Assembly: GCA_922989275.2 (NCBI GenBank)
Contig: OV277870.1
Span: 45,814,356-45,878,355, forward strand
DNA: 64,000 bases
Origin: Gari tellinella
Lineage: Eukaryota > Mollusca > Bivalvia > Cardiida > Psammobiidae
Reading direction: 5' to 3'
The translations under genes and the position numbers were made by a program. Positions 5,202-54,900 of this stretch are shown in pieces (position 1 is the first letter of the stretch; the number at the start of each line of letters is the position of its first letter). The notes beneath the pieces are model-generated. The model was not told the DNA's origin, made no database searches, and saw only the letters and a list, made by a program, of their open reading frames with translations.

Positions 5202-5457
5202 CAGGGTTGCCATACGTTGACATAAAAAAATCCTAAGATTTCCAAATTTGCATTTTTCAAGTGCGATTTTACGAATCGTACCTTTACCCAATCGCCTGTG
5301 TCTAGTTTTGTTGACACGTGGTTGCTTAAAGCAGGCTGGCAGTAAAGCAGAATGAGCATAAAGGCGCATTCTGCTTTACTTTCAGCCTACTTTAAGTTAC
5401 CATGTACTAGAAAAAAATCCGAAGATTTAGGAAAAATCCGGAGAAATGGCAGCCCTG
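5202..5457. mobile_element. Family G hairpin element with 6-base duplication CAGCAA
   Basis: Family G has ends CAGGGCTGCCATTTCTCC or close variants. This copy starts CAGGGTTGCC and ends GGCAGCCCTG, flanked on both sides by CAGCAA. Its centre is a family A-type palindrome (GCTTAAAGCAGGCTGGCAGT). Confidence 0.85.
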
Positions 5458-5567
5458 CAGCAACAAATCCCTATATTTTGAAATATGGTCGACATTATTG
5501 GAAGCTGCAATTGTCCAGTTGAAGTTTATGGGGTAAATGAGTTGCAATGCGATGATCAATCATTGTA

Positions 5568-5814
5568 CAGTGGAGAATCTGCTATTCTTTCCCGTTTAAA
5601 CGCAAACGTACGCAAACGCAAAGCACTAAAACGTAGAAAAGAACAACTTTTGGACAATTCTGATATTTCATGTTTATCTTGGTGGCAAACAGTTTGGAGC
5701 CTGATCAGACGCCGGGTTACCCGGCGTCTGATATGGCTCCAAACTGTTTGTAAAAGAAAAAAATAGTTATAGCGTAAACACGTTTATCGGGAAAGAATAA
5801 CAGATTCTCCACTG
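5568..5814. mobile_element. Family C element (TA-flanked) with GACGCCGGG hairpin
   Basis: Inverted ends CAGTGGAGAATCTG(C/T)TATT, with TA on both sides (5566-5567, 5815-5816). The core CAAACAGTTTGGAGCC with CAGACGCCGGGTTACCCGG sits at 5687-5752. Tc1/mariner-type target choice. Confidence 0.9.
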
Positions 5815-5841
5815 TACCCTGATGAAATCATCATCATCATA

Positions 5842-6284
5842 CAGTAAGACCTCTCTATTACTGAATTGTGTTAATGGGTATTTAGTACAGATGACTGCTT
5901 AACCCTTTCCCTTATAGAAGCGACCTTTAGCACATTCATTTTATTCATCCGCTGAAGAAAATAGTTCCACATTATACCGTAATGAATATGTGTCATATTT
6001 AATACTTTCCTTATTCTAGCAGTTAATAGCTTAAAGCAGGCTGAAAGTAAGGCACATTCTGCTTTACTTTCAACCTGCTTTAAGTGGTTACCTGTCTTCA
6101 AAACAAGAAACGGGCTATGAGGTAAAGGGTTAAAGCAATGGGACAGTAAAACAGAAAGATCACTCGGGAGCTTTTCTGTTTTACTGTCACCTAGCTAGGC
6201 TAGCTTTGAGTTGTCACATGTCATTTATACAATCAACTGAGCCTTCGTTTAGTGATCGAAATAGATTCTAGAGAGGATTTACTG
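5842..6284. mobile_element. Family E element (TA-flanked) interrupted by family A
   Basis: Family E ends are CAGTAAAACCTCTCTATTA-like and TA-flanked, like pogo/Tigger ends. The core GACAGTAAAACAGAAAG is split from its left half by the TTAA element at 5899-6133. Confidence 0.88.
5899..6133. mobile_element. Family A element inserted at TTAA within the family E core
   Basis: TTAA occurs at 5899-5902 and 6130-6133. Deleting one copy with the element restores ATGACTGCTTAAAGCAATGG, the sequence seen in uninterrupted family E copies. Confidence 0.92.
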
Positions 6285-6674
6285 TATACTCAATTCACAA
6301 CTTCATTATCATACAACAGTGTACTTATTGTTACCACCGGGTCAGTTGCTCAGTAACTAGGATCCAAAATGTTCGACATTTATATCGAGTTTTCTTCAGT
6401 CAAAATTCTAAAGAATCTAAATTGCAAGCAGACAGCAGGCCCCAAGCTTTGGAGTTGGGTATGAGGTTGTTCTCAGTCAGGCATTTGATTGATCAGATTT
6501 CAACTTTTGCTGAGATTGAGATCGTTCTCAAGCATTTGAATGGTCAGATTTGGGCTTTTGCTCAGAAATTTAAGAACGATCTCGGACTCAACTCGAAAGT
6601 TGCATCTAACAGTCCTGGCTGAGGCTCTGAAATTTCACTAGCAAAAGTTAACTAGAACCAGACATTTTAGAAGC

Positions 6675-6925
6675 CAGGGGCCCGTTTCATAAAACTTCGT
6701 ACAACAAAAACGGTCGTAGCCTAAGTCAGATTATAAAAGTCACAATTATTATTTATTTCTCCATTTAATCCTATCTTGTGACATTTCTTTTGAATCGTCT
6801 TGAAAAGACGATTCCAAAGAAATGTCACAAGACAAGATTAGATGGTGAAATTGAAAATTAAATGTATTTTAAAGATTTGACTTACGACCATTTTTGTCGA
6901 ACGAAGCTTTATGAAACGGGCCCCA
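6675..6925. mobile_element. Family I element with GAATCGTCTT hairpin
   Basis: Ends GGGGCCCGTTTCATAAA and its complement. The central palindrome GAATCGTCTTGAAAAGACG resembles the family F core, not the core of the other family I copy at 17408. Confidence 0.85.
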
Positions 6926-6977
6926 GTATTCTAAATGATAAAGGTTAGTTTTAACAGGAACGTTTTAACAATTTCTT

Positions 6978-7530
6978 TAACCCATTGAAACCTAGTGAAA
7001 AGTATTCTCGTCATTTTCAAAATGTGTTCCAATGAAAAGTAAACTTACAGTGGAGAATCTGTTATTCTTTCCCGTTTAAACGCAAACGTACGCAAAGCAC
7101 TAAAACGTAGAAAAGAACAACTTTTGGACAATTCTGATAATTCAGGTTTATCATGGTGGCAAACAGTTTGGAGTCTGATCAGACACCGGGTTACCCGGCG
7201 TCTGATCTGGCTCCAAACTGTTTGCACTGCAAATAATAGTTTTAGCGTAAACGCGTTTATTGGGAAAGAATAACAGATTCTCCACTGTACCATATGCAAA
7301 CAATGTTTATCCTGATCAGGGGGATCTTATGGGAACTCTCTGATCAGGGTCTGCACTGTTTGTCATATTTTGCAATATATTGTAAAACAACCCTGTTTTG
7401 GTAAAAAAAAAGAAAAAAAAGGACTAGATTTGTTTTGAAACTTCACAGAATTATACACTGTGTATAATTCCGCGGAAACTTGAATTGCTTATTTAAAATG
7501 TCAGTGGTGAATGAGTAATTTTACAACGAA
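6978..7530. mobile_element. Family B element interrupted by family C at 7048-7287
   Basis: Family B is TTAA-flanked with the core CAAACAGTGAAGACCCTGAT / CAGAGGGCTCC. Here it starts TTAACCCATTGAAACCTAG, and its core (CCTGATCAGG, CTCTGATCAGGGTC) follows the inserted element. The right end is degenerate. Confidence 0.7.
7048..7287. mobile_element. Family C element (TA-flanked)
   Basis: Ends CAGTGGAGAATCTGTTATTC and complement. TA at 7046-7047 and 7288-7289. Core CAGACACCGGGTTACCCGG with one arm mismatch. Confidence 0.9.
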
Positions 7531-8298
7531 GTTAATTTTACATTCTTGGTCTCTAGTAGTGAGTTATCAACTGGTCATTCGAAGTCGGCAGGTGCAGGTC
7601 AACAAGAGAGATAAAGTGTTGGTCAGGTGTATGTGACCATGGAACCCAGATAAGAACTAGACATTTTCCCGTTTGGCTCGTTTTCAATGTATCAGGTGTT
7701 TGAAAGCAGGTTGAAAATAAAGCATAAACACAACAACCCACAAATAAGGAAGTTGCTCTTTGTCAGAAAATCAGGCATTTATATGCAGATTTTTTTTAAA
7801 TGCGAAACATTTTGGAACCAGATCAGACACCACATTTATGGGGCATGATCTGGGCTCAAAATATTGCAAACTTTATCTAAAAATGAAAATCCATCTTCAG
7901 CTTGCGAAGAGATAACGAAACATTGAATTTAAACATTAGGTAAATTTACAATCTGTTTGAGGATACGAGTTTGATACTAAAATATTGTTCAATTACTTCA
8001 TATCGTGGCCAGTTTTAAAATGTCAATAAGTGTTGCTCAAGTTTCCGAAAAGGTTACCAGAGTGATAGGATGTCATGAGGTATATCAGTTGCCATAGTAA
8101 TCTAGATTACTTCAAATACTCCTTACACTTTAGTTTTGTTGTTGATGTGAACGCCGTTAGTAAACTAATAACGATGCAAATCCAGGAAGGTTGTCTAATT
8201 TTCGCTTTGCTTTGGGGATTTTCTCTGGGTATGTTTTATTTTGCTCTGTGTATATTTTCCCTTGGTTTACGGTAAAACCTCGGTAATTTGAACTCAGC

Positions 8299-8552
8299 TT
8301 AACTCTTTGAACCCTAGTCGCGCACATATGCGTCATGTGCAAACAGTGTACCTTTGATGAGTACACTTGTCCTATGCAAGCAATGTAGACCCTGATCAGA
8401 GGGCTCCTGAAGGAGCCCTATGATCAGGGTATACACTGTTAATTGTCATTTGGCATATATTTAAAAATAAACCCTAAAAAGGTCAAAAATGGACTAGACT
8501 AAATTGAAAATTAGAAATTATCCATTTGAGGTTTCAGGGAGGAAAGGGTTAA
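8299..8552. mobile_element. Family B element inserted at TTAA in a pogo/Tigger-like element
   Basis: TTAA at 8299-8302 and 8549-8552. The flanks join to GGTAAAACCTCGGTAATTTG, AACTCAGC, TTAA, GTCGAAC, a pogo-like terminus. Core AGGGCTCCTGAAGGAGCCCT. Confidence 0.85.
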
Positions 8553-8677
8553 GTCGAACTAATCCGCTTTTCAAAGTTTAAACGTTGCTCTAAGCCAAGT
8601 TTTAACTTTGAAATAAGGGTAAGTTCGACTGAAATGAGCTCGAGGTACGAACTTAAACTTAAGAAATCAGGGTTGAC

Positions 8678-8939
8678 TTAACCATTTACTCTATAACCTG
8701 TTTCAAGTATGGAAATTAGTTGACCACTTAAAGCAGGTTGATAGTAAAGTAGGATGCGCCTTATAACGCACTCTGCTTTTTTAGTCTGTTTTAATTCAGC
8801 TTGTAACCATCTGCTAGAAAAAAGAAAACAGTTCTTATGATACATATTCATCACTACACGTATATAAATTGGAACTATTTTCTTCGCTGGAGGAGTACAT
8901 TAAATGCGCAAAAATACGTATCTAAGAGTAAAGGTTTAA
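8678..8939. mobile_element. Family A element
   Basis: TTAA at both ends and a decayed palindrome (GGATGCGCCTTATAACGCAC). It lies in the same pogo-like host element as the family B copy at 8299. Confidence 0.78.
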
Positions 8940-9029
8940 AAGTGAGTTGTTAAAGCTCCACTGCATTTTGTTTTGTGTAGACTTTCAGTTTCTATGATAT
9001 GAATGCTGGAGAGGAGTTTCAATACCCTC

Positions 9030-9322: not shown

Positions 9323-9385
9323 TATTTATTCTGAACTAAAATCCAAATAGATTAACTCTCAGAATCATCGCAGGTGACAACACAT

Positions 9386-9611
9386 TTAACTCTTTGCATG
9401 CTGGGTAAATTATTTCGTCTGCAACAATTGTCGTCTGCGACTGTTCTAAAATTAGAATTTTAAAAAAAATCTTTTAAATTCAGGGTCAGAATAGCAAACA
9501 GTTTGGATCCTGTTGAGACGCCGCGTCACGCGGCGTCTCATCTGGATCCAAACTGTTTGCAAAGGTAATAAGTGTGGCGGATATATCTGCCGCTAGCATG
9601 TAAAGAGTTAA
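9386..9611. mobile_element. Family D element (TTAA-flanked) with GACGCCGCG hairpin
   Basis: Ends TTAACTCTTTGCATGCTGG and complement. Core CAAACAGTTTGGATCC enclosing GAGACGCCGCGTCACGCGG. It also contains repeated GTCGTCTGC motifs. Confidence 0.88.
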
Positions 9612-10170
9612 TTACCCAAAAGTCAGTAACACTATGAGACGATATTGGAGACAACAATATTGTAGCAGACGACAATATTGCGGTGAGAGGGTAAAAACCT
9701 CACGATACATTTGGCGTTGAAATAATTAGTGTAAAACATAGTACATGTATATACAGCTCATATGAATAGATGTGCAAATGTTTTGTTGTTTGAATAATTG
9801 ATACTATAAACGCTACTACAGCGCTCCTTCTCTACAACGACACCCAAAGGGAGACAAAAAATGTGTGCGTTGTTCGGATGGAGTCTTAAATAGGGAGGGA
9901 AAATGGCTTATATTTGCAAACAGCTTGAAATTAGATCTGAATTAAATATGCGTGTCACTCCTTATTACGGGTTTTTGGGTAAAATTGTCCATTACGCAAC
10001 TTTGAGAAAAACAGCAGACGACAATATCAAGCAGACGACATTGCAGCCGTGAATAATTTGGACATAATTGTCTTGCTTTTGGGAAGAGCGGCAAACGTTG
10101 TTTTAAGGAGGGGGTCGTTGTTTGGAGGGCCGTTGTAGGGAGAGAGCACTGTATTATCATTAAGAGCGTA

Positions 10171-10214
10171 TTATTATTATTATTATATGTATTATTATTA
10201 TTATTATTATTATT
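10171..10214. repeat. TTA trinucleotide microsatellite
   Basis: (TTA) run interrupted once by TATG, directly upstream of antistasin-like exon a. Confidence 0.95.
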
Positions 10215-10252
10215 ACAATCATAATCGTCGATATAATTTAAACATTGTAAAG

Positions 10253-13830: not shown

Positions 13831-14119
13831 CAATAAAACAAAATACTTTTACACACCAGTGTATTTGTACTTGGATTGCAATATTAAGCGTTGTCAAGGA
13901 CAGTATTTAATAACATATGTTGTAATTTGTGAACATAATGATACACCCCTTAAATATCAGGTTGATCTTATTTAAATCAAATAATTTTTAATATTTCAAA
14001 TACAGCTAGATCTATGACAATGGAACATTATGATCAGGTTAGAATTTTGCCCAAACACCAGGTCAATGATAGCTGTATATAGTTTAACTGGTCCAAGGAG
14101 CAAATACATACATTATGTA

Positions 14120-14230
14120 CAGTTAAACCTCTCTATTATGGCCACTAATGCTATTTGATTGTACAAGATTTGTGTCAGCTTAAAGCAATGTGATAGTAAA
14201 ACAGAAAGTAATAATAGGGAGGTTTTACTG
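14120..14230. mobile_element. Short family E element
   Basis: Ends CAGTTAAACCTCTCTATTA and AGGGAGGTTTTACTG. Only half of the palindrome remains (GCAATGTGATAGTAAAACAG). Confidence 0.75.
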
Positions 14231-14730
14231 CATGTTTATGGTAATCAGGCCAGATGTTTCAGATGGAACGACTTTTTACTAAAGCCTGGGAATATAAGAT
14301 AAACTTGCCCTACCCACAATGTCTGGTGCAAGGTCAGTCAATGATTACTAGTATATTGCATGAATGGTTAAATTAAACAAGAGACAACATAATAAGCAGT
14401 TTCACATTTAATACAATTCTTAATAACAGCATAAAATCTGGCACTTATTTCACATAAACTCATTTCTCAGAATTAGCAACCTTTTTAACTCATTATCATG
14501 ACATAATAGAAATTCACAAATTGAAATACAGTAAATCTCTAAAATGACCACACAAAAAGGAGCTCATTTTTAAGGCAGGTAATTGCTTAAAGCAGGGTGG
14601 AAGTAAAGCAGAAAGATTATGTAGGAAACTATGGCTATATATATTTTCCCTTGGTATTTTCTACCAGTGAACTAGTTATTTTCTGCATATCTTTTGTACA
14701 ATCTGCAGTAGTGCTGAAACAATTACCCTG

Positions 14731-16147: not shown

Positions 16148-16253
16148 GCTCATGGTTCATTTATCTAATAAAGGAAAGGATTATTCCAGTAAAGATTAAT
16201 GTTTCTTTGATAGGGAAAATTATTACAAAATGTTGGACTTAAATTCGGAAATA

Positions 16254-16453
16254 CAGTAAAATCTCACTATTAAAACCACTTAAACGAAGGCTACTTGATT
16301 GTATAAAATACAGATGACAGCTTAAAGTAAGGTGACAGTAAAACAAAAAGCTCCTAAAAAGCTTTCTACTTTACAGTCACCTTGCTTTAAACAGTCAACT
16401 CTTGTTAATACCTAATAACACAATTAAGTGGTTGTAATAGAGAGGTTTTACTG
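16254..16453. mobile_element. Family E element, intact (200 bases, TA-flanked)
   Basis: TA at 16252-16253 and 16454-16455. Ends CAGTAAAATCTCACTATTA and complement, with CCACTTAAACGAAGG subterminally. Core GGTGACAGTAAAACAAAAAG. Confidence 0.9.
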
Positions 16454-16619
16454 TACAACATTTATTTGTATCCGACAATTAGTTGAGCAATGTACATGCA
16501 TAACACTTTATCACAGGTAATGATTGTCTCTATCTTATATGCAATACTGGCACGCTGATATACAGTCCAGTTATGATAACTAGTTTTCCTTTAGTTGAAA
16601 TGCGGTGACTCAAGCTAAT

Positions 16620-16871
16620 TTAACCCTTTGCCCAATAGTCTGTTTCTAGTTTTGAAGACAGGTGAGAACTTAAAGAAGGTTGAAAGTAAAGCAGAATGCG
16701 CCTTAAGGCGCATTCTGCTTTGCTTTCAACCTGCTTTAAGCTAGCCTCTGCTAGGATTTAGAAACCATTTATTTTGGTACATTTTCACGACTGTATAAAT
16801 TGGAACTATTTTCTTCAGTGGAGGAATAAATTTAATGCACTAAAAGGCGCTTCTATGTGGGAAAGGGTTAA
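16620..16871. mobile_element. Family A element
   Basis: TTAA at both ends and a palindrome with GAATGCGCCTTAAGGCGCAT. It is flanked by pogo-like sequence resembling that around 8560-8680. Confidence 0.9.
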
Positions 16872-17407: not shown

Positions 17408-17654
17408 CAGGGGCCCGTTTTACTAAACTACTTACGCAAATTTTTTGCGTAAGTCAAAATCGTTTTACTCTTATTTTTCGATCATAAACGTTTGCAAACA
17501 GCAAATAGCCAGATCAGAGGACGCGCTAAAAGCGCGTCCTCTGATCTGGCTATTTGCTGTTTGTAGCAAGTGATAATAAAATATCTAAATCAAAACTTAA
17601 AATTTTGACTTATGCAAAAAAGTGGCGTTAGTAGTTTAGTAAAACGGGCCCCTG
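17408..17654. mobile_element. Family I element carrying a CAAACAG-type hairpin
   Basis: Ends CAGGGGCCCGTTT and complement. Perfect palindrome from about 17493 to 17563 with GCAAACAGCAAATAGCCAG and GATCAGAGGACGCGC. The other family I copy (6675) has a different core. Confidence 0.9.
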
Positions 17655-17660
17655 GTATCT

Positions 17661-18919: not shown

Positions 18920-21900
18920 CTGAAAAGGTAAATACATTGGGTTTTCTAATTTGCTAGGCGACTTCTTTTTAATCCTTTCTGACATAATCAAGCTCTATAG
19001 AAACGTAAAAAGATCAATTAAGTATCTGATCAGGATCCAAAACAGTTTGACACTTGGATTGTATTCAGGAAAGTAATTTTAGTAATTATTTATGTATTAG
19101 AATTTAAGTGTTTAAATCACTCAATACGGTCTGTCCAGTATTAGTCAACTGTAACATGAGTTGTATATGTAGTCACTGGTCTTACTTCTTACCTTGATAT
19201 CCACAAACCTATCATCGGGAGGCACATACTGCTTAGGACAATACAAGGCCACAAGTTTTAACCACATCAAGTCAGAATCAATCTCAATTAACTTCTTACA
19301 GCAGTCTATACAATCCTGAAATATACGAAATTTGATCTCAATTGGTAAAGAAATGTAAAAGTGGTTGGCATAAGTGAAAACAAGAACAATAACTCTGTCC
19401 TTCTTGGGACAACTCACATGAAAAGTATAAATGTGTACTTCATTATAAATGTATATGCATAGTTTGATGTGAATCAGTAAAGAAATGTAGAAGTAGTTTG
19501 TGTTACAAGCTTTATTCAGTTGAAAAATTTGTTCAGATTATACAGGGCTCCAGATAAGGGGGGTATTTCAAAAATTAAAATCTTTATTTCTGCATTTAAC
19601 CCTATAGTGTCACTACTCATTAGAATCGTCTCAAAGAGACGATTCTAATAAGTTGTAACACCATACGATTTGGTGCTGAAATGAGTGAGAAAATGTTGAT
19701 TTTGTTCAGTTCACTCACTCTTATCTGGAGCCCTGAGATAATGATTGAGCATAAATCAAATACATGTGTTTACATCTGGAGATGTTGTTGTGTATGTAAG
19801 ACATACATTATTTATGCCTCCTATTTGCATTTTTCATATATGCAATTAGATGACATTTGTTCTTTAACTCATTGAACTCTTGTGATGCATATATGTATCT
19901 TTTACCAAAAGTGTACCTGAGAAGAGTACACTTATCCTATGCAAACAGTGAAGACCCTGATCAGAGGGCTCCTGCAGGAGCCCTCTGATCAGGGTATTCA
20001 CTGTTTGTCATTTTGTAAAACATTTAAATAAACAAGCCTAAATAGTTGAAAATGGACCAGCCTTAATTGCAAACTGGACTTGTCCATTGGAAGTTTCAGG
20101 GGATAATGAGTTAAAGCAGATGCGGAATGAAAATAAAGGTGCTTTCTGATCTTTTCCAATTATTCAACAGGTGTTCGCTTATCAACTTTTGTATATATGT
20201 GAAGAAAGCCAATGTCTTCAATAAATAAACAAGATATCCTGTACATATGTACTCACACTTTGTAATTGCACTGGTTGCTTACTATGGAGATATGGCACAC
20301 AGGAACTCGTTATAAGGTCAAGGTCACTGCCTTGGATACTGCTCTAAAATTAAAACAGAAATCTCTGGAATTAGATGTCTCCAAGCAACAAAGAAACAAA
20401 AGGGAGACACGGTATTGCAATAAAGGGGTGTAAAACTGAATGGTTAACCCTGCAGCTAAATCTAAAAGTATGAGATCTCCAATGCCGCCTCAGCTGACTG
20501 AAATAAAAACTTCTTTTTACGTCTTCCTTGCAACAAGATAACATATTTGAAACTCTTTACAACTCTTCAAATGCAGAAGTTTGATGGGTATACAAGGTTC
20601 CAGATAAGGGGAGTATTTCAAAAATTAAAATCTTTATTTCTGCTTTAAACCCTATGGTGTCACTACTCATTAGAATCATCACGAAGAGACGATTCTAATG
20701 AGTAGTAGCCCTATAGGATTTGGTGATGAAATAAGTGAGAAAATGCTAGATTTGTTCAGTTTACTCCCCCTTATCTGGAACCCTGGGTATATATAGTGGA
20801 GGAAGAGGAAACAATAATGAAATAAACAATCAACAAAGTCATTGCCTTACCTGGAGTCCACTAGTTATTTGAAAACAGTTTGGATGACACTGTGCAAGAC
20901 AGCATCTGATCAAGATTCAACAGCTTGATCCTCATTTCAGTATTTCTTTGGTCAATTTACCTAGAACAGGGCTCCAGATAAGGGGGTTATTTCAAAAACT
21001 AAAATCTTTATTTCTGCTTTAAACCCTATGGTGTCACTACTCATTAGAATCGTCTCGAAGAGACGATTCTAATGAGTAGTAACATCATAGGATTTGGTGC
21101 TAAAATATTTGAGAAAATGTTGGATTTGTGCAGTTTACGCCCTCTTATCCGGAGCTCTGCTAGAATTTAAATATGAGCAATAAAAGCAGACAACAATTGT
21201 TTTAAGTAGATGAAGAGATAGCAGTGAAATCATTAGTACATGTACTTACTGTTTCCACTATGGCACCAATGTTGTTCAGAATGGCTCTCTGAAGTTTATA
21301 GTTGACAGTGAACTGATAAGCTGACCCAGCATGAACACTGAAAAATAGTGGATTCAAACTTGTGTTAACCCATTACCCAATAAAAATGCCTTTTTACGCC
21401 TTTAATATATTCATCCACTGAAGTAAATAGTACCATTTTATACAGTCATGAATATGTGCAATAAGAAATATTTTCTATATCCTATCCCTTAATAGCTTAA
21501 AGCAGGCTGAAAGTAAAGCAGAATGCGCCTTAAGGCGCATTCTGCTTTGCTTTTAACCTGCTTTAAGTTGTCAACTATTTTCAAAACTAGAAACAGGCTA
21601 TGGAGTAATGGGTTAACTCACTGACTCCTGAAACTTCCAATTCCAGTTTCCGATTATGTCTAGTTCACCCATGACTGGGAAGTATTTCACAAAATATTGC
21701 AAAATTACCAACTGTACAGACCCTGGCCAGAAGGCTCCTGTATGAGCCCTCTGATCAGATTCATCACTGTTTGCATACACCAAGTGTACTTTTCACAGGT
21801 AAATGATGAATAAACTTAGGGTTTAAGGGTTGAATGTGTTAATCTTATCCTTTAACCCTTTGAACCCTAGTCCCGCATATAGGCGTCATTTTTAAAAGTA

Positions 21901-39900: not shown

Positions 39901-42900
39901 TTCCATTAGTTGTTTTGTTTAAGTAATGTTTTACTCCTTTCCTGAAGTTACTATGCCCTGCAAAATTATTTTGGTTGGAGAAGGGGGGGGGGGTCCAAAT
40001 TTGATGGCGTAAAAAATGGACCCCCCCCCCCCCCCCTTTTCAACACCCAACCATAAGTCATTTGATTTACACATCAACTTTAATTCTTTTCCATTACTTG
40101 TTAAGTTTAAGTGATGTTTTTCTCCTAATTTGAGGTTTAACTATGCCCTGCAAATTATTTCAATTGGAGAGGGGGGTCCAAATTTGATGGCGTAAAAATT
40201 GGACCCCCCTCCCTTAGGGCTGAAATGATTCAAAAACATTCGGTTCGATTCGATTTCGATTTTTTATAACACGATTCGATTATTTTCGATTCGATTCGAT
40301 TTTACATTGCAATAAATGAATGTACTAAGTAGATGACATCCTGCAATAACAGTTAATATTAAAAAACAATATATATGAACATTCAGGGCCAAAAAGTAGG
40401 GGTTAAAGTTTGGAAAACTGCATGGAAGGGTTTAATACATGTATCAATTTCTGACTTATAAGATTTTGATCATAACAATACACCTTATTTATTATGTGGA
40501 TGGTTTGCAGTATAGACATACCAATTCTTCTATGTTATTATGATTTTCTATGCGCAAGCAGCAGTGTAGACCATTGTCATCAACCATTTACAGCTGCCTG
40601 GTAACGGTCTACTCTGTTAGCAAGGTACAGAAGGGTGCAAAGGAGTGGATAGTTATTCATCTTAAATGAAGATTATAATAATCGATACATCTGAATATTA
40701 CTGTTCCTGAATTTCACTCACCGGTTTAAGTTCGTTAACAATGCTGTCAGTCGCCTTTGCTTTCGATTACGGAGCGGACTTTGATTGTTACTTGACATAT
40801 CGCGGGAATTCACCATACATTCTTACACCTATTATCCGGGTGTTGAAACATATGTCGGGCTGTATATTCGGTATCAAAAATAAATCACAATAGTTTATAA
40901 TTTAATTTTCTTACCTGGTTTGTACGTCTTTATTTTTTAAAGTAATGAGCGTATTAGGTTGACGATAATAAAATATCCAACGTTTACAGAATTATTAATT
41001 TATTTGAAATAGTCGAAGCAGTACCGAGATACGTAATGTGAACGAAGAATTACATCACAATTGAGACAAGCAATTGCTCACGCATGCGTAGAATGACACA
41101 GGAAACCGGCAAAGTAAACATAGACATACTCGTAACGGATGAAAAAGCCTGTGCGGGATCTCTAATCTTTCGAACTAATACTTTACCGTATAATAGAGGT
41201 ACATTTTAATTCGCTATTTATCACACAGAAGCGCAGCTGGACGTAATACTCATATGATGGTGTTGCAGTATGAAAAGATAGATAGATAGATAGTAGGGAT
41301 AGAAGCGAGTTTTCTACATATAAATCGAATCGAAAATGACATTTCCTAAATCGAATTGAATCAGATCGAATCGAGGGCATAAAATCGCGGTTCAATCCAG
41401 ATCGCGATTAATCGTTTCACCCTTACCCTCCCTCCCATTTCAGCACCCAACAATAAGTCATTTGATTTACACATCAATTTTAATTATTTTCCATTATTTG
41501 TTTTGTCAGTAAATCAAATGACTTATGGTTGGGTGTTGAAAAGGGAGGAGGGTCCAATTTTTACGCCATCAAATTTGGACCCCCCTCTCCAATTGAAATA
41601 ATTTGCAGCACATAGTAACCTCAGATTAGGAGAAAAACATCACTTAAACTTAACAAGTAATGGAAAAGAATTAAAGTTGATGTGTAAATCAAATGACTTA
41701 TGGTTGGGTGTTGAAAAGGGGGGGGGGGGGGGGGGGGGGGGGGGGGTCCATTTTTTTTACGCCATCAAATTTGGACCCCCCCCTTCTCCAACCAAAATAA
41801 TTTGCAGGGCATAGTAACTTCAGGAAAGGAGTAAAACATTACTTAAACAAAACAAATAATGGAAAAGAATTAAAATTGATGTGTAAATCAAATGACTTAT
41901 TGTTGGGTGCTGAAATGGGAGGGAGGGGGTCCAATTTTTACACCATCAAATTTGGACCCCCCTCTCCGACTGGAATAATTTGCAGAGAATAGTAACCTCA
42001 GGATAGGAGAAAAAACATCACTAAAATTTAAACAAGTAATGGAAAGGAATTAAAGATGATGTGTAAATCAAATGACTTATAGTTGGCTGTTGAAAAGGTA
42101 GGGGGGGGGGGGGGGGGGGGGGGGGGTCCAATTTTTACGCCATCAAATTTGCACCCCCCCCCCCCTTCTCCAACCAAAATAATTTGCAGAGCATAGTTAC
42201 TTCAGGAAAGGAGTAAAACATTACTTAAACAAAACAACTAATGGAAAAGATTGAAAATTGATGTGTAAATCAAATGACTTATAGTTGGGTGTTGAAAAGG
42301 GAGGGGGGTCCAATTTTAACGCCATCAAATTTGGACCCCCCTCTCCAATTGAAATAATTTGCAGGGCATAGTAACTTCAGGAAAGGAGTAAAACATTACT
42401 TAAACAAAACAAATAATGGAAAAGAATTAAAATTGATGTGTAAATCAAATGACTTATGGTTGGGTGTTGAAAAGGGGGGGGGGGGGGGGGTCCATTTTTT
42501 ACGCCATCAAATTTGGACCCCCCCCCCCTTCTCCAACCAAAATAATTTGCAGGGCATAGTAACTTCAGGAAAGGAGTAAAACATTACTTAAACAAAACAA
42601 ATAATTAAAATTGATGTGTAAATCAAATGACTTATGGTTGGGTGTTGAAATGGTAGGGGGGTCCAATTTTTACGCCATCAAATTTGGACCCCCCTCTCCA
42701 ATTGAAATAATTTGCAGCACATAGTAACCTCAGATTAGGAGAAAAACATCACTTAAACTTAACAAGTAATGGAAAAGAATTAAAGTTGATGTGTAAATCA
42801 AATGACTTATGGTTGGGTGTTGAAAAGGGGGGAGGGGGGTCCATTTTTTACGCCATCAAATTTGGACCCACCCCCCCCTTCTCCAACCAAAATAATTTGC

Positions 42901-45900
42901 AGGGCATAGTAACTTCAGGAAAGGAGTAAAACATTACTTAAACAAAACAAATAATGGAAAAGAATTAAAATTGATGTGTAAATCAAATGACTTATGGTTG
43001 GGTGTTGCCAAGGGAGGGGGGGGGGGGGGTCCAATTAAATTAAGGGCGTAAAAAGGCATATTTATTGGATACTGGGTTAAGCTACCATCTTCTAGGATAC
43101 ATAAAATATTTCTTATACAGTAAATGTTTGTGACTGTATAAAATGGAATTATTTTCTTCAATGTAAGAATACATTGTACAAAATGGAACTACTTTCTTCA
43201 GTGGAAGAATAAATTAAGGGCATAAAAAGGCATATTAGCTACCATCTTCTAGGATACATAAAATATTTCCTATACAGTAAATGTTTGTGACTGTATAAAA
43301 TGGAAATATTTTCTTCAATGTAGGAATACATGGTACAAAAAGGAACTACTTTCTTCAGTGGAAGAATAAATTAAGGGCGTAAAAAGGTATATTTATTGGG
43401 TAATTGGTAAAGCTACCATCTTCTAGGATACATGAAATATTTCCTATACAGTAAATGTTTGTGACTGAATAAATTGGGATTATTTTCTTCAGTGGAAGAA
43501 TAAATTAAGGGCGTAAAAAGGCATATTTATTGAGTAATGGGTTAAAATATTCATTGGTTTCTTGTTTCTTAACTTTTTATTATGTTTTTTTATCATTCTA
43601 AATTTTTACATGGGGGGGTCCATTTTTTACAGGGGGGGGGGTCCAAATTTGATAGCGAAATATGGACCCGCGGGTCCATATTTCGCTATCAAATTTGGAC
43701 CCGGTGTAACAGCCAATTCTTTCCCCCCTGCTAAAAGTTTCCCCGGGGAAAGAATTGGCTAGCCAAAACCTTCCCCGGGGAAAGAATTGGCTAGCCAAAA
43801 CCTTCCCCGGGGAAAGAATTGGCTAGCCAATTCTTTCCCCCCCTAGTCAAAAGTTTCCCCGGGGAAAGAATTGGCTAGCCAATTCTTTCCCCCCTAAAAA
43901 CTCATAATTGAGAATACTTTTAGCTAGCCAATTCTTTCCCCCCTAGTTGAAACTTTCCCCGGGGAAAGAATTGGCTAGCCAATTCTTTCCCCCCTCGCTA
44001 TATTTTCGCAATTCAGTGGGGGGGGAAAGTTTTGGCTAGCCAATTCTTTCCCCCCTATCTGACAGTGTGCAGATTGTATGCTTTGACTATCTTGGAGGGG
44101 GGAAAGTTTTGGCTAGCCAATTCTTTCCCCCCTATCTGACCGTGTGCAGATTGTATGCTTTGACTATCTCGGAGGGGGGAAAGTTTTGGCTAGCCAATTC
44201 TTTCCCCCCTATCTGTCAGTCTGCCGAATTGCATCCTTTCATTATCTTGGAGGGGGGAAAGTTTTGGCTAGCCAATTCTTTCCCTCCGATCTGACAGTGT
44301 GCATATTGTATGCTTTGACTATCTCGGAGGGGGGAAAGTTTTGGCTAGCCAATTCTTTCCCCCTTATGTGTCAGTCTGCGGAATTGCATCCTTTCATTAT
44401 CTTGGAGGGGGGAAAGTTTTGGCTAGCCAATTCTTTCCCCCCATATTTTGCAGTCTGTAGAATTGTATACTTGGACTATCTCGGAGGGGGGAAAGTTTTG
44501 GCTAGCCAATTCTTTCCCCCCTATATGACCGTGTGCAGATTGTATGCTTTGACTATCTCGGAGGGGGGAAAGTTTTGGCTAGCCAATTCTTTCCCCCCTA
44601 TCTGTCAGTTTGCGGAATTGCATCCTTTCATTATCTTGGAGGGGGGAAAGTTTTGGCTAGCCAAATCTTTCCCCCCTCCCATATCTTACAGTCTGTAGAA
44701 TTGTATACTTGGACTATCTCGGAGGGGGGAAAGTTTTGGCTAGCCAATTCTTTCCCCCCTATCTGACAGTGTGCAGATTGTATGCTTTGAATATCTCGGA
44801 GGGGGGAAAGTTTTGGCTAGCCAATTCTTTCCCCCCTATCTGACAGTGTGCAGATTGTATGCTTTGACTATCTTGGAGGGGGGAAAGTTTTGGCTAGCCA
44901 ATTCTTTCCCCCCTATCTTACAGTGTGCAGATTGTATGCTTTGACTATCTCGGAGGGGGGAAAGTTTTGGCTAGCCAATTCTTTCCCCCCTATCTGACAG
45001 TGTGCAGATTGTATGCTTTGACTATCTTGGAGGGGGGAAAGTTTTGGCTAGCCAATTCTTTCCCCCCTATCTGACAGTGTGCAGATTGTATGCTATGACT
45101 ATCTTGGAGGGGGGAAAGTTTTGGCTAGCCAATTCTTTCCCCCCTATCTTACAGTGTGCAGATTGTATGCTTTGACTATCTCGGAGGGGGGAAAGTTTTG
45201 GCTAGCTTATTCTTTCCCCCCTATCTGACAGTGTGCAGATTGTATGCTTTGACTATCTCGGAGGGGGGAAAGTTTTGGCTAGCCAATTCTTTCCCCCTCC
45301 CCTCTCTTTCAGTCTGTTGAACTGTATACTTGGACTATCTAGGAGGGGGGAAAGTTTTGGCTAGCCAATTCTTTCCCCCCTATCTGACAGTGTGCAGATT
45401 GTATGCTTTGACTATCTTGGAGGGGGGAAAGTTTTGGCTAGCCAATTCTTTCCCCCCCTATCTGACCTCGTGCAGATTGTATGCTATGACTATCTTGGAT
45501 GGGGGGAAAGTTTTGGCTAGCCAATTCTTTCCCCCCTATCTGACAGTGTGCAGATTGTATGCTTTGACTATCTCGGAGGGGGAAAGTTTTGGCTAGCCAA
45601 TTCTTTCCCCCCTATCTGACAGTGTGCAGATTGTATGCTATGACTATCTTGGAGGGGGGAAAGTTTTGGCTAGCCAATTCTTTCCCCCCTATCTTACAGT
45701 GTGCAGATTGTATGCTTTGACTATCTCGGAGGGGGGAAAGTTTTGGCTAGCCAATTCTTTCCCCCCTATCTTACAGTGTGCAGATTGTATGCTTTGACTA
45801 TCTCGGACTTTCCCCCCTCCAAGATAGTCAAATGTTGCAATTCTGCAGACTGGCAGATAGGGGGGAAAGAATTGGCTAGCCAAAACTTTCCCCCCACCGA

Positions 45901-48900
45901 GATAGTCAAAGTATACAATTCCACAGACTGTCAGATAGGGGGGAAAGAATTGGCTAGCCAAAACTTTCCCCCCTCCAAGATAGTCAAATGTTGCAATTCT
46001 GCAGACTGGCAGATAGGGGGGAAAGAATTGGCTAGCCAAAACTTTCCCCCCTCCGAGATATTCAAAGCATACAATTGCGCACACTGTCAGATAGGGGGGA
46101 AAGAATTGGCTAGCCAAAACTTTCCCCCCTCCGAGATAGTCAAAGCATACAATTTCGCACACTGTCAGATAGGGGGGAAAGAATTGGCTAGCCAAAACTT
46201 TCCCCCCTCCAAGATAGTCAAAGTATACAATTCCACAGACTGAAAGAGAGGGGGGAAAGAATTGGCTAGCCAAAACTTTCCCCCCTCCAAGATAGTCAAA
46301 TGATGCAATTCCGCAGACTGACAGATAGGGGGGAAAGAATTGGCTAGCCAAAACTTTCCCCCCTCCAAGATAGTCAAATGATGCAATTCCGCAGACTGAC
46401 AGATAGGGGGGAAAGAATTGGCTAGCCAAAACTTTCCCCCCACCGAGATAGTCAAAGTATACAATTCCACAGACTGTCAGATAGGGGGGAAAGAATTGGC
46501 TAGCCAAAACTTTCCCCCCTCCAAGATAGTCAAAGTATACAATTCCACAGACGGAAAGAGAGGGGGGAAAGAATTGGCTAGCCAAAACTTTCCCCCCTCC
46601 AAGATAGTCAAATGATGCAATTCCGCAGACTGACAGATAGGGGGGGAAAGAATTGGCTAGCCAAAACTTTCCCCCCTCCTAGATAGTCAAAGCATACAAT
46701 TTCGCACACTGTCAGATAGGGGGGAAAGAATTGGCTAGCCAAAACTTTCCCCCCTCCAAGATAGTCAAAGTATACAATTCCACAGACTGAAAGAGAGGGG
46801 GGAAAGAATTGGCTAGCCAAAACTTTCCCCCCTCCAAGATAGTCAAATGATGCAATTCCGCAGACTGACAGATAGGGGGGAAAGAATTGGCTAGCCAAAA
46901 CTTTCCCCCCACAGAGATAGTCAAAGTATACAATTCCACAGACTGACAGATAGGGGGGAAAGAATTGGCTAGCCAAAACTTTCCCCCCACCAACAAAGTC
47001 AAAGTATACAATTCCACAGACTTTCAGATAGGGGGGAAAGAATTGGCTAGCCAAAACTTTCCCCCCTCCAAGATAGTCAAAGTATACAATTCCACAGACT
47101 GAAAGAGAGGGGGGAAAGAATTGGCTAGCCAAAACTTTCCCCCCTCCAAGATAGTCAAATGATGCAATTCGGCAGACTGACAGATAGGGGGGAAAGAATT
47201 GGCTAGCCAAAACTTTCCCCCCACCGAGATAGTCAAAGTATACAATTCCACAGACTGACAGATAGGGGGGAAAGAATTGGCTAGCCAAAACTTTCCCCCC
47301 TCCAAGATAGTCAAAGTATACAATTCCACAGACGGAAAGAGAGGGGGGAAAGAATTGGCTAGCCAAAACTTTCCCCCCTCCAAGATAGTCAAATGATGCA
47401 ATTCCGCAGACTGACAGATAGGGGGGGAAAGAATTGGCTAGCCAAAACTTTCCCCCCTCCTAGATAGTCAAAGCATACAATTTCGCACACTGTCAGATAG
47501 GGGGGAAAGAATTGGCTAGCCAAAACTTTCCCCCCTCCAAGATAGTCAAAGTATACAATTCCACAGACTGAAAGAGAGGGGGGAAAGAATTGGCTAGCCA
47601 AAACTTTCCCCCCTCCAAGATAGTCAAATGATGCAATTCCGCAGACTGACAGATAGGGGGGAAAGAATTGGCTAGCCAAAACTTTCCCCCCACAGAGATA
47701 GTCAAAGTATACAATTCCACAGACTGACAGATAGGGGGGAAAGAATTGGCTAGCCAAAACTTTCCCCCCACCAACAAAGTCAAAGTATACAATTCCACAG
47801 ACTTTCAGATAGGGGGGAAAGAATTGGCTAGCCAAAACTTTCCCCCCTCCAAGATAGTCAAAGTATACAATTCCACAGACTGAAAGAGAGGGGGGAAAGA
47901 ATTGGCTAGCCAAAACTTTCCCCCCTCCAAGATAGTCAAATGATGCAATTCGGCAGACTGATAGATAGGGGGGAAAGAATTGGCTAGCCAAAACTTTCCC
48001 CCCACCGAGATAGTCAAAGTATACAATTCCACAGACTGACAGATAGGGGGGAAAGAATTGGCTAGCCAAAACTTTCCCCCCACCAACATAGTCAAAGTAT
48101 ACAATTCCACAGACTGTCAGATAGGGGGGAAAGAATTGGCTAGCCAAAACTTTCCCCCCTCCAAGATAGTCAAAGTATACAATTCCACAGACTGAAAGAG
48201 AGGGGGGAAAGAATTGGCTAGCCAAAACTTTCCCCCCTCCAAGATAGTCAAATGATGCAATTCCGCAGACTGACAGATAGGGGGGAAAGAATTGGCTAGC
48301 CAAAACTTTCCCCCCACCGAGATAGTCAAAGTATACAATTCCACAGACTGTCAGATAGGGGGGAAAGAATTGGCTAGCCAAAACTTTCCCCCCTCCAAGA
48401 TAGTCAAAGTATACAATTCCACAGACGGAAAGAGAGGGGGGAAAGAATTGGCTAGCCAAAACTTTCCCCCCTCCAAGATAGTCAAATGATGCAATTCCGC
48501 AGACTGACAGATAGGGGGGGAAAGAATTGGCTAGCCAAAACTTTCCCCCCTCCGAGATAGTCAAAGCATACAATTTCGCACACTGTCAGAAAGGGGGGAA
48601 AGAATTGGCTAGCCAAAACTTTCCCCCCTCCAAGATAGTCAAACCATACAATTCCGCCAGATAGTGAGAAAGAAATCCTACAGTGCGAAATTATAGGGGG
48701 GGAAAGAATTGGCTAGCCAATTCTTTCCCCGGGGAAAGTTTCAACTAAGGGGGGGAAAGAATTAGCTAGCTAAAAGTATCCCACTTTTGAAATTATAGGG
48801 GGGGGAAGTTTTTGACTAGGGGGGGAAAGAATTGGCTAGCCAATTCTTTCCCCGGGGGAAGAAATTGGCTAGCCAATTCTTTCCCCGGGGAAGGTTTTGG

Positions 48901-51900
48901 CTAGCCAATTCTTTCCCCGGGGAAACTTTTGAGGGGGGAAAGAATTGACTGCTACACCGGGTCCATTTTTTATGGGGGTCCAATTTTGATATGACACCGG
49001 TAGTTAAAAAAATAACAATAAACAAGATGTGTTGTGAAACACTATGCTCCCTGATGTAGCCATGACCCCTAAATGGCCATGACCTTTGTCTGATATTACC
49101 ATGTACTGGACTTGAAAGTTTTCTGATATGAGTACACATGAAAAATATGAAGTCTTTATACAAGTTTCTAATTGAGTACACATGCTTATTTTGAAGTCTC
49201 TATCACATGTAGCTCAAAAGTAATGGCAACAGATCTTATTCACGTGAAAACGTTAGCAACGTAACGTTCAAAATGGCCAACGTTCGATGAAGATGACGTC
49301 ATTTGGTTTCTATAACGGCCGCGCTTATGTAAACATTCAAACAATTTACATATTCGTTGATTTTGAACCAGGTACAGTGGAGAAAACGTTATTCTTTCCC
49401 TATAAACGCGTTTACGCTAAAACTAATATTTCCATTGCAAACAGTTTGGAGCCAGATCAGACGCCGGGTGACATGGCCTCTGATCAGGCTCCAAACTCTT
49501 TGTCACTTGTATAACAAGAGCCCCATGGGGCATATTCGCTCACCTGAGAATAATTGGAAAAATGGAGATATTGATTTATGTCCAGGACTGACCTAGATAT
49601 GCATCAGACCGGAACAATTTGAATAAAAAATGTAAAGTATATTTAAAAGTGTCACCATACAGAATATAAAAGCTCTGGCCTTATTAGAGTCAGAGAAGAA
49701 GATGTTTGAAATTTTCTTGATATAACTCTATGTAAAACAGTGACCCCCGGGGCGGGGCCAATTTTGACCCTAGGGGCATAATTTGAAGAAACTTAATAGA
49801 GGACCTGTAGGCGATGATATGTGCCATATATCTAAGCTCTGGCCCTTGTAGTTTTAGACAAGAAGCTTTTTTAAGTTTTCATTGTAAAAAATCTATTTTT
49901 AGCTCCTGTGACCTAGTTATGCAACGGACCAAAACCATTTGTACAATTTTGGTATAAGATATCTAGAAGTGTCACTATGCCAAATATCAAAGCTCTGGCC
50001 ATATTAGTTTTAGAGAAGAAGACGTATGAAAATTTCACTATATAACTCTATGTAAAACCGCGACCCCCGGGGCGGGGCCAATTTTGACCCCAGGGGCATA
50101 ATTTGAACAAACGTGATAGAGGACCTGTAGGCGATTCTATGTGCCAAATATCTAAGCTCTGGCCCTTGTAGTTTCAGACAAGAAGATTTTTTAAGTTTTC
50201 ATTGAAAAAATCTATTTTTAGCTCCTGTGACCTAGTTATGCAACCGACAACAACCATTTGAACAATTTTGGTAATGGACATCTAGAAGTGTCACCATGCA
50301 AAATATCAAAGCTCTGGCCACATTGGTTTCAGAGAAGAAGACGTTTGAAAATTTCACTATATAACTCTATGTAAAACTGTGATCTCAGGGACGGGGCCAA
50401 TTTTGACCCCAGGGGCATAATTTGAACAAACTTGATAGAGGACCTGTAGATGATGCTATCTGCCAAATATCTAAGCTCTGGCCCTTGCAGTTTTTGACAA
50501 GAAGATTTTTTAAGATTTCCTTATTTTTTCACTTTGGTTGCCATGGCAACCAGAGTTCTGCATTGTTTTTAATTCTTTGAACAAATTTGAAAGAGCTTGA
50601 CCCAAGGAACATTTCTGTAAAGTTTGGTCGAATTCTGTCAAGCGGTACAGGAGGAGATGTCATTTGAAGCAATTGTTAACGACGACGGACGACGGACAAC
50701 GCACGCCGCCGGACACAGGGCCATCCCAATAGCTCACCTTGAGCCTTTGGCTCAGGTGAGCTAAAAATGAATAGTCAGAGTTGTCAAAAAATTGTTATTT
50801 TTTTGTACATTTTATTACGATGTGTTTGCGTTTTGTTTGCGTTTAAGCGGTAAATAATAACATTTTCTCCACTGTATAAATAAATAAGACATTAAACGGT
50901 TGCTGATTCAGATGTATATGAACTGTATTTGGGCGGTAAACGTGACGTCACGCACTAATGTTTAGATAATGATGGATGACATGTTTTCATATTATATGAC
51001 AGTGACCGCCTTTAATCTCTTCCATCAAATAAAAGGTAGTCGGTAGGATAAAAACGTTACACAGTGTTCAGGTGACCTAATATGAAATATACACTGCCAG
51101 TAAATTCCATATGGAACTCGAGCTCTGCTCTCGTCCCATATGGAATTTACTGGCAGTGTAGGTCACCTGAAAACTGTGTAACTTATAATGCCTTGTACTA
51201 ATAAATGAATGTGTAGCTGAATATCATCTTGTGTACTTTCCAGACATATGCAAAAGCTGTTCTACATGCACACTGTGATAAACTTACATTTTGAGTCAGC
51301 TTGACTCAAGTCCAGTAAACACTCCATGGCTAAGATTCGCAGGTTCCTTGCTCGTTCCATTTCTGCTATGTTCAGTAACAAGGAAACAGCATGACCAAGT
51401 AAGGGAAGGCAAACCACTGTATACAAATGCTGGACAACACTTAAAAGTAACAAAAAGAACAACAAATACAGTAAAACCTCTCTAAATACAGTGGAGAATG
51501 TGTTATTCTTTCCCAATAAACGCGTTTACGCTAAAACGTTTATTTCCACTGCAAACAGTTTGGAGCCAGATCAGACGCCAGGTAACCCGGCGTCTGATCA
51601 GGCTTCAAACTGTTTGCCACCAAGATAAACATGAATTGTGAGAAATATCTAAACATTGACATTTTCTACGTTTTAGTGCTATGCTTTTGCATACGTTTGC
51701 GTTTAAACGGGAAAGAATAACAGATTCTCCACTGTATATACAACCACTTACACAAACACTAATTTATGTTTAAAAGACAGGTGATAGCTTAAAGCAAGGT
51801 CACAGTAAAACAGAAAGCCCCTAAAAGAGCTTTCTGTTTTTCTGTCACCTTGTTTTAAGCATTCACCTGTTGTAAATACCTGCTAATTAACACAATTTAG

Positions 51901-54900
51901 AGGTGATATTAGAGAGGTTTTACTGTATAAAAATTGGCATTTGTATGTAGAACATGAAGAAGAATTTTGCTGAATCAAATATCTCACTGCAAAAAAGAAG
52001 AGTAAGCAAGACAATGGTATTGCAATAACAAATAAGAGTAAAAAAAAAAAGTTGAAGCTAAATATAAAAGTTTTACATTTCCACTACTACCTCTGCCATT
52101 ATTGTCACCAGATTTAATTTGATTTGACCTGTTATGATTTTATGTCAATTTTAATACCGTAGAACATGTATTTCAGTCATATTACCGAGCTAATTAGATG
52201 TTGAGGAAGACTCCAGAGGCCCTTCATACATTGTTTTACATACAAATCGGTAACTAGGTAGGAAGGCTTCCTCATATGACCAATTCCCCCCCTATATTTC
52301 CCTGCCTTTTTTTAATCTCATCATCATCAGATTTTTTATTAATATGCAAGGGTGGGAGCATTGAGCATTGTCCACAACAGTGGGTTCCCTTCCAGCTAAC
52401 TGGCTAGCTGTGCGTGCATAAAGTCAGGTTTAACTCTATTCTTGGTTTCAGAAACAAGACTGCATTCAATAAACGCTTATGCCCCTGGTGGCATCCTTAC
52501 CTATATATTCTGGACTATTTCTAAACTGTCCAAATTAGGTCAAGGTCAATTCAAGGTTGGGTGAATTTGGAATGGTCCAAGGTATCAACTGTATAAGAAT
52601 TCAAGCATTCTAATGAGCAGTGTTGATGTCAAGCATGACAAAAAAATCTAGTTAGCCGGTAAAATCTAGTTAACCGAGGAAAAGCCCATTTAAAATATTC
52701 CAAGTCCATCAAAGGTCAAGGTCAAACTGATTATGGATGTACTGGGAATGGTCCAAAGCAACAAGTGTATAAGTATCCAAGCATTCCAGTTAGTGATGCT
52801 AGATGAAACAGTAAATTCTGGATTATAACCTTTACACACAGACAGGACAATCACTATAAGCCTCGAACAACCAAAGATGCTGGGGACGTAAATAAAATCA
52901 TTATGTTGACAGTTCCATACCTGTGCTCTGAATTTTTCACTAGGGTGCGCAGTGTCTGTATGATGGCAATCTTCAACTCTTCCGACAGCTTTGCAACTGT
53001 AGATAAAAGCAATTGAAATTAATGACATACATGTACATGTATATCTGTTTTCTGCTGAAACTTTAGCTGTTTTCTACAACATATCTTGTCTATTTAACTA
53101 AGAGTCAACTCCTTTTTCCTAAACCATGACTTAGGACACCTCTTCCTACTTTTAAAACCATCCTTATCTGGAGAACTGGGTAGGGTAAAAATGTTTTACC
53201 TAATAGTGTCTGATAAAACTAAATCTTATCAGGAGTGTCTCTTCCCTGTTTAAATTACCTTTACTCTGATCAGTTGGGCAAGAGAGCATGCTGGTAGCAG
53301 TATTGAAAATGTCATAGAACAGATCCCATCTGGTAATACTTGTGTGACCCAACACAAACTCCATACAGGTGAACAGGTCCAGGTACAAGTCTTGAGTGCT
53401 AAAACAGAAATACAGTCAAATGTGTGTTAAGCAATCATTTTTTGCAGACGACATCAATCTCTTTAACCAATCACTCGATAAGTACACCTTTTATTTTATC
53501 CCCCCACTAAAGAAAATAGTTCCAATTTATATAGACATTCTATTATACACTCAGGACAAAAAGAAACGCACATCGTGCTCAGGCGCATATTAAGAAACCT
53601 TTTTTTAGATACTAAGACCATATATCAAGATCAATTCAATACTGCAACAAGTTCAGAAAAACATATACTTAAAATTACTGTGCTGTCTTTTAACCCTTTC
53701 ACTCTTAATGACGTCAAAAGGCGCGTTTTCAAACAGTTTGGATCCTGATCAGACGCCGCGTTACGCGGCGTCTGATCAGGATCCAAACTGTTTGACACTC
53801 GTATAGATGTACTTTAAGTCATACTACTTTGAATCTTACTTTGAAACGATCTTGCAAACAACAAAATTGAAGCAGACGACAATGAAACGGTGGTGGGATA
53901 AAAATCTCACGATTAATTTGGCAGCGAAAGAGTTAACTAGTGCCTGTTGAAAACACCGCACCGATTTGTGCATGTTGTGATGATACCAATTCAATGATAA
54001 ACCTCCCATTTTCAACATTGATAGCCCAAGACGGAACTACTGGCTGTAATGAAAAGATTATTTCACAAATACGTTCCTTCTACATATAGATAATATTGTA
54101 ATAAAAGTGTGCGTTTCTTTTTGCACTGAGTGTATATATACAATTATAAATAGTTTCCATATCCTAGTATATATAACTAGGATAGAGAAAATATTTCTTG
54201 TATTGCAAATCAATGACTATATTAAGTTGAATGATTTTCTATATTGGAGGAATAAATTGAAGGCAATTATGGACTAGTGAGTTAAAGCAGGCTGAAAGTA
54301 AAGCAGAATGTGCCTTCAGGCACGTTCTGCTTTACTTTTAACCTGCTTTAAATGATCAACTATTTTCTTTACTACTAGAAACAGGCTACTAAGTAATGGG
54401 TTCAAGACAGCTGGCAGCGTAATACAGGAAGGAAGAAAGCTTCCACGGGACCTTTCTCGATTACTTTTGCCCTGCACAAATAACTTTTTTTCTTACTTTT
54501 AATTTTCTCTTAATAAAGATTGTAAAAGCAGGCCACATAAATAATTCTATAACAAGGTTACCATTTCTTTGGGTGCTTCAGGATCACCCTGAGTGGAAAA
54601 ATGACATATTCTTGTAAGTCTTGCAGCACCCTGGCATCAACAGACTGTAGAGCAGTGAATAGACTGGCTATATTAGTTCTTGTATGCTCCTTAGTCAACT
54701 GGACACAGAAGGGCTTAAGGCTGGAGAAAGCCTCAGACCTTAGTGTCTCCCTGGAAATAGAATTTATTAAATATTAACATACAAGTTTTTATTCTCATTG
54801 TTATGTGAATGTCATCAAATCAGGTTGGCAAACAGTTTGCAGTGTATAAATAAAATCTAATTTGATATGGACCATGAATTTAAAATGTAGATTAATTCAG

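Follow-up and report, generated by a model that had tools for sequence, protein, structure and literature searches.

MER6 and MER6A are miniature inverted-repeat transposable elements (MITEs) with a V-SINE domain (SINE, short interspersed nuclear element), described in the passages concerned as composites that arose by nested insertion, in which a conserved internal domain of one element class is nested in, and amplified by, a MITE of another class (PMC6887750). Chimeric copies of the transposon Galileo in Drosophila mojavensis, in some of which the termini of one subfamily enclose an internal region from another, are attributed to ectopic recombination or conversion (PMC3573991). MITEs make up a considerable share of bivalve genomes and are left without further classification in the sections of the survey that treat them (PMC10294476). 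A bivalve MITE from Lucina pectinata (MITE-like consensus sequence 1) has inverted ends of ~30 bp and a central palindrome of 77 bp, and the passages on it concern one family and describe no sharing of its core between termini (PMC4732748). Here we analyze a 64,000-nucleotide stretch of the bivalve Gari tellinella (the window; contig OV277870.1, positions 45,814,356 to 45,878,355), in which hairpin cores of three types lie inside short non-autonomous elements (~190-400 bp, a hairpin inside each) that have unrelated ends and differing target duplications (TTAA, TA, or 6 bp). MER6 combines a SINE domain with a Tc1/mariner MITE and Galileo chimeras unite subfamilies of one transposon, whereas here, within one genome, palindromic MITE cores are found in several terminus classes. 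Among the matches listed in keyword searches of the open-licence literature, none reports palindromic cores common to MITEs of different terminus classes. We consider it likely that these are MITE-like elements of several unrelated DNA-transposon systems, which acquired common cores through nesting and rare core-centred exchange and were then amplified. The initial annotation held that no described mechanism would make such sharing routine; this is too strong, because nested composites (MER6, PMC6887750) and ectopic-exchange chimeras (Galileo, PMC3573991) are published, and products of both kinds are present here as single copies.

The hairpins were confirmed where the initial annotation had placed them, and the ends and duplications agree with its assignment of families A, B, and D to TTAA, C and E to TA, and F and G to 6-bp duplications. 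Among the listed window copies, degraded copies excluded, TTAA is present at both ends in 8 of 9 copies of family A, 8 of 8 of family B (two listed a few bases off), and 3 of 3 of family D, and TA is present at both ends in 5 of 5 copies of family C and 6 of 7 of family E. Exact 6-bp duplications flank all three copies of family G, and the four copies of family F comprise two with exact duplications, one with one mismatch, and one with none. No clear target duplication was found for the two family I copies. An additional TA class with a second-type core, family K (TACAGTGTTCCCTCTCTAC ends, TACAGTG...CACTGTA), comes from a 200-kb random genome sample. The elements are short, with inverted ends, duplications (none found for family I), and high copy number, as MITEs are. 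The TTAA duplications of families A, B, and D are those of piggyBac-like elements, or conceivably of another TTAA superfamily, and the TA duplications of families C and E are those of Tc1/mariner-pogo-like elements. The ends of A, B, and D presumably resemble piggyBac and those of C, E, and K Tc1/mariner-pogo. CAGGG ends are hAT-like; the 8-bp duplication of hAT is not found in families F and G, whose duplications are 6 bp. No known structured RNA family matched the 64 kb at the gathering score of Rfam.

Homology between families was tested on the best pair per family combination, with the alignment score compared to the maximum of 300 shuffles. The scores are 170 against 26 for A-G (120 bp, ungapped), 107 against 27 for C-D (69 bp), 84 against 28 for A-E (95 columns), 70 against 28 for F-I1 (100 bp, ungapped), and 59 against 25 for B-I2 (72 columns). 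All named cross-family pairs exceed their 300 shuffles, confirming the earlier claim that elements which have unrelated ends and differ in target duplication have cores in common. The second core group (B, C, D, and I2) is also real, but within it the similarity of B to D (40 against 26) and of B to C (38 against 29) is modest. Chance or convergence of short motifs, which these modest scores and a match of only ~9 bp per arm in the F-I1 hairpin taken alone would allow, is rejected for the strong pairs by the shuffle test, and with the full F-I1 alignment running ungapped for 100 bp we regard it as extremely improbable. The two family I copies had been taken as one family with two cores. Their ends are indeed alike and their cores differ, but the alignment between them is restricted to the ends and barely exceeds the shuffles (30 against 29), and judged by sequence they are two families, I1 and I2. 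I2 is a genome-wide family: 40 of 1234 first-look candidates were scored, one of them the window copy itself, and all 40 cover at least 243 of 247 bases at 94-100% identity.

Several of the shared tracts extend beyond the palindrome. The A-G tract begins at base 9 of the A left end (TTACCC...) and reaches 41 bp to the left of the hairpin and 7 bp past it; the F-I1 tract extends 21 and 18 bp outside the palindrome, and the A-E tract 17 and 6 bp. D and K, in the random sample, share the core and, with gaps, up to ~95 bp of D flank on one side only. Copies in the window include the following (window positions, strand).

5202-5457, +: family G copy with CAGGG...CCCTG ends and 6-bp duplication CAGCAA; it includes a segment of family A (most of the A left end, left flank, and hairpin 5325-5396)
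34809-35070, -: family G copy, duplication CATTGT, A-type hairpin 34870-34941
32615-32847, -: family G copy, duplication TATCAC, hairpin shortened by internal deletion (32675-32726)
16620-16871, +: family A copy, TTAA at both ends, hairpin 16669-16740
21365-21616, -: family A copy, TTAA at both ends, hairpin 21496-21567; one TTAA is common with the B copy 21613-21842
5840-6286, +: family E copy (TA ends), split at the hairpin-edge TTAA by family A copy 5899-6133
16252-16455, +: family E copy, TACAGTAAAATC ends, hairpin 16321-16391
24584-24834, +: family B copy (TTAA), hairpin 24662-24727
6977-7362, +: family B copy split at TA by family C copy 7046-7289; B hairpin 7297-7362, right end undelimited
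5566-5816, +: family C copy, TACAGTGGAGAA ends, TA, hairpin 5686-5750
37671-37910, -: family C copy, hairpin 37736-37800
51467-51927, +: family E copy with family C copy 51487-51736 nested at TA; E hairpin 51788-51859
9386-9611, +: family D copy (TTAA), hairpin 9495-9559
22245-22458, +: family D copy (TTAA), hairpin 22354-22418
53690-53936, -: family D copy (TTAA), hairpin 53730-53794
6677-6924, +: family I1 copy, GGGGCCCG ends; element bases 76-175 align ungapped to family F
17410-17652, +: family I2 copy, GGGGCCCG ends, B-related core 17495-17563
19543-19735, +: family F copy, CAGGGCTCC ends, no clear duplication, hairpin 19604-19664
20967-21159, +: family F copy, duplication CTAGAA, hairpin 21027-21089
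9817-10153, +: family K copy, TACAGCGCTCCTTCTCTAC ends; half of a D-type core is all that remains, and one side has a D-like flank

We then compared cores with termini in 20 random 10-kb stretches (200 kb) of the 1.598-Gb genome (80 contigs) together with the window, which lies on contig 15. A first terminus test, requiring a perfect TTAA motif, missed 8 of 9 B cores in the sample; the patterns were relaxed after this was seen, and the relaxed patterns find both ends at 16 of 600 random positions. The 173 two-armed cores (half-cores excluded) comprise 96 with both ends of one class, 4 with mixed ends, 41 with one end, 30 with none, and 2 at a stretch end. The table of the 96 is near block-diagonal: A cores in TTAA (15) and G (4) elements, B in TTAA (12), C in TA (35), D in TTAA (11), D3 in K (4), E in TA (5), F (6), I1 (3), and I2 (1). 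Each terminus class thus has one core subtype, with the A core in both A and G as the exception. The mixed cores are those of two A copies in which one of the ends is E-like, which we read as nested, and those of loci L027 and L033; among the one-end cores, one C core adjoins a K end and one D3 core adjoins a C end. A tree of 109 cores, 79 of them labelled from their flanks independently of the core, requires four terminus label changes, which is the minimum, while shuffled labels require 31.6 on average and none of 200 shuffles is as low. Of two window-only trees, one has three changes (minimum three) and the other four (minimum two), the latter because the G cores lie within A. The trees span ~65 columns and are poorly resolved, with bootstraps that are not settled; in them, G cores fall inside the A clade, C cores form one clade within the diversity of D, and I2 cores fall within B. 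Neither the cross-tabulation nor the comparison of cores with terminus labels on the tree, checks of the kind that the initial annotation had proposed genome-wide, shows free mixing in this sample. Its claim of a separate palindrome module across at least three transposase types therefore stands in part: related palindromes occur in at least four end types (TTAA, TA, 6-bp, and GGGGCCC), and exchange inside the core between TA and TTAA elements exists (L042 and L043, with a C end at one side, a D end at the other, and intact hairpins). Free movement is not supported, since the core subtype tracks the terminus class almost perfectly and the A-G, F-I1, A-E, and D-K tracts include non-palindromic flank.

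Nesting and single-copy products of core exchange, like the homology and the tract extents, are directly observed. Within the window, family A is inserted in E at the hairpin-edge TTAA (5899), and family C in B at TA (7046) and in E (51487). Outside it, the element at L027:7715-8120 has TTAACTCTTT...GAAAGAGTTAA ends (TTAA) and its own D core arm, interrupted at 7883 by an I2 copy that has lost its last 26 bp and is joined to the D-type right end; it is a TTAA element that now carries an I2 core. At L033:7759-7823, one half consists of C end and C arm and the other of D3 arm and K end. Exact-pattern searches of the whole genome gave six matches for C-K, on inspection five C-K and one C-D (L034), and two further matches for C-D. 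A third pattern, in which the C long-flank word stands at both sides, matched 13 loci; the reversed-pattern control for each search gave 0. Three copies of one C-K recombinant lie at intervals of ~22 kb on contig 19 (L037-L039, 22.155-22.199 Mb), an arrangement that looks like tandem duplication. Because L033 is one of these three matches, its presence in the random sample is luck. The contig 14 match has the K half and downstream sequence found on contig 19 with a different C half, the contig 12 match (L035) has an incomplete C half between two K flanks, and the contig 1 match (L034) has C joined to the other D flank, scoring 39 to D against 14-15 to K. At equal stringency, 19 C long-flank sites were counted in 200 kb, extrapolating to ~152,000 genome-wide; set against these, the eight matches indicate that exchange inside the core between C and K or D is real but rare. 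Two of the 13 C-C loci were inspected, and L041 is a fully symmetric element. Frequent inverted exchange was ruled out, with no symmetric C among 35 two-sided C copies and only the 13 loci by exact pattern genome-wide.

These copies suggest a route by which the composites could have formed. Each terminus class would have gained its central hairpin about once, from a different hairpin MITE that was already abundant, and would afterwards have been amplified as a fixed composite. One hairpin MITE may insert into another, frequently within the hairpin or next to it, and a later deletion that strips the end of the nested element would leave its core within host termini. Alternatively, a break or template switch inside a homologous palindrome may join half of one element to half of another. 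Rarely, a composite with two matching ends would result and amplify. We infer that G, I1/F, K, C, and I2 were founded by such events, which of the two would apply to each, and that a second step gave the matched ends. The free-module reading would then shrink to a small number of past captures through event types already described, on an unusual scale. A route in the opposite sense, in which old, vertically inherited cores had their termini replaced around them, would yield an identical end product and agrees with the diverse D and uniform C cores; G and L027 keep donor pieces beyond the core, a better fit with capture into a host, and we judge terminus replacement unlikely.

Several observations weigh against nesting and exchange followed by amplification. 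The half-and-half chimeras bear two different ends and probably cannot transpose, so that a matched-end founder needs a second step, of which none was seen. L040, the other C-C locus inspected, holds a short patch only, and all eight C-K and C-D matches lie on one strand, although ordinary C long-flank sites are 10 forward and 9 reverse in 200 kb; small numbers are the sole explanation we can offer. Sharing in C-D and B-I2 ends 0-5 bp from the palindrome edge, as that of a palindrome-sized module would, and the weaker B-C and B-D pairs likewise end there. Because the D flanks are themselves poorly alignable (0.58-0.62 identity), the missing D flank homology is weak evidence for such a unit. 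These tract ends, and the TTAA on each side of many A and E hairpins, would suit an independent hairpin that is itself mobile and enters elements irrespective of class. It is also conceivable that the A hairpins are nested TTAA units. The longer tracts of A-G, F-I1, A-E, and D-K and the near-single core subtype per terminus class argue against an independent module, as does the lack of any duplication around a core noticed by eye in the printed flanks, which were not tested systematically; such a module seems to us distinctly improbable. Finally, cores are more conserved than their two flanks (identity 0.956 versus 0.918 and 0.901 in C, 0.890 versus 0.580 and 0.619 in D, and 0.866 versus 0.749 and 0.753 in B), a gap inflated by the finding of cores through similarity.

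This conservation would be expected if cores were selected, a perfect palindrome aiding amplification (for example by forming a cruciform or hairpin, by pausing replication, or through a host factor) and families of many transposases keeping or regaining one. Over 31 bp, the two arms of the majority core match fully in D1, D2, D3, and I2 and have one mismatch in C and one in B, although subtypes differ in both arms, with double changes in 12 of 29 pairs among B, C, D, and I2 and 9 of 33 among A, E, and G. Paired-end elements of six non-TTAA classes contain a hairpin in 60 of 77 cases (one E/K element counted twice) versus 43 of 300 random windows. However, arms within a copy are barely more alike than arms between copies (P=0.097 for A, 0.044 for B, 1.0 for C, and 0.16 for D), which rules out strong continuous arm-to-arm correction within copies and argues against strong ongoing upkeep. 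The majority core of B2 has three arm mismatches (n=4 copies), and young founders would be palindromic in any case. Selection of this kind is conceivable, though we would not expect it. Taken together, the near-perfect subtype palindromes, the differences in both arms, and the slight likeness within copies suggest that new families begin again with an almost perfect palindrome and are not corrected continuously, and inverted exchange as in L041 could be a candidate source of renewed perfect palindromes. A more speculative picture, about as doubtful as selection itself, is that the core is a selected amplification cassette of unrelated transposon systems: elements that capture it would become the most abundant MITEs, arm exchange or copying would renew the palindrome at each founding, and the core lineage would outlive any transposase.

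The genome of 1.6 Gb is estimated to hold ~1.7 million core copies and fragments (nine estimates summed, extrapolated from 200 kb with wide intervals), a number that suggests that the core lineage, rather than the termini, is the longer-lived unit. Classifying MITEs by their ends alone hides this, and the visible intermediates of composite formation make rates, breakpoints, and any amplification advantage of the hairpin core measurable.

Breakpoints at or in the palindrome were noted by eye, with other breakpoints left uncounted, in E copies 14118-14232 and 27164-27327, in A copies at 5899 and 23785, and at L022:103-311. In the A copy 1286-1592, a direct duplication begins exactly at the palindrome centre. 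At 43063-43545, right halves of family A are repeated in head-to-tail order, and their junctions fall at or close to the TTAA that usually adjoins the hairpin. Of 15 family A copies, four (1286, 4137, 6130, and 23785) sit on a TTAA that edges an E-like hairpin (P=0.0038, post hoc). The C copy 49373-50876 is interrupted just outside its core by a repeat that starts ACAAGAGCCCCATGGGGC and ends GGTGAGCTAAAAA.

Scans of viral contigs with four core patterns gave 0, 0, 0, and 3 matches, the three without such a hairpin. A scan of bacterial genomes gave two matches, L001, rejected as it has no such hairpin by eye, and L002:1-47, at the end of a contig (MUIB01000095.1) of a spirochaete metagenome-assembled genome. 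The latter is part of a second-type core (41.7 bits, cut by the contig end), with a C/D-like inner arm and a B-like outer arm. A P3 Spirochaeta-like bin of 2014 is mentioned in a study of Phacoides pectinatus gills (PMC6461927); because the label of L002 resembles it, the core fragment is probably contaminating DNA of the animal host.

The window also contains a long open reading frame that by inference belongs to a long interspersed nuclear element: it matches reverse transcriptase strongly, and its PHD-finger and endonuclease matches score slightly above and slightly below the Pfam cut-off, respectively. Satellite-like arrays of short G-rich palindromic units (AGGGGGGAAAGTTTTGGCTAGCCAA..., GGGTCCAAATTTGATGGC...), often ~78 bp apart, occupy 38888-48918, and the orientation of the units switches between blocks. 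A much longer hairpin of another family, with arms of 85-89 bp, occurs at 62148-62319 and at L025:108-287. An unrelated perfect palindrome of 80 bp (GAGTGTGTTCTCAAGC...) lies at 22833-22912, with a decayed copy at L019:7668-7735.

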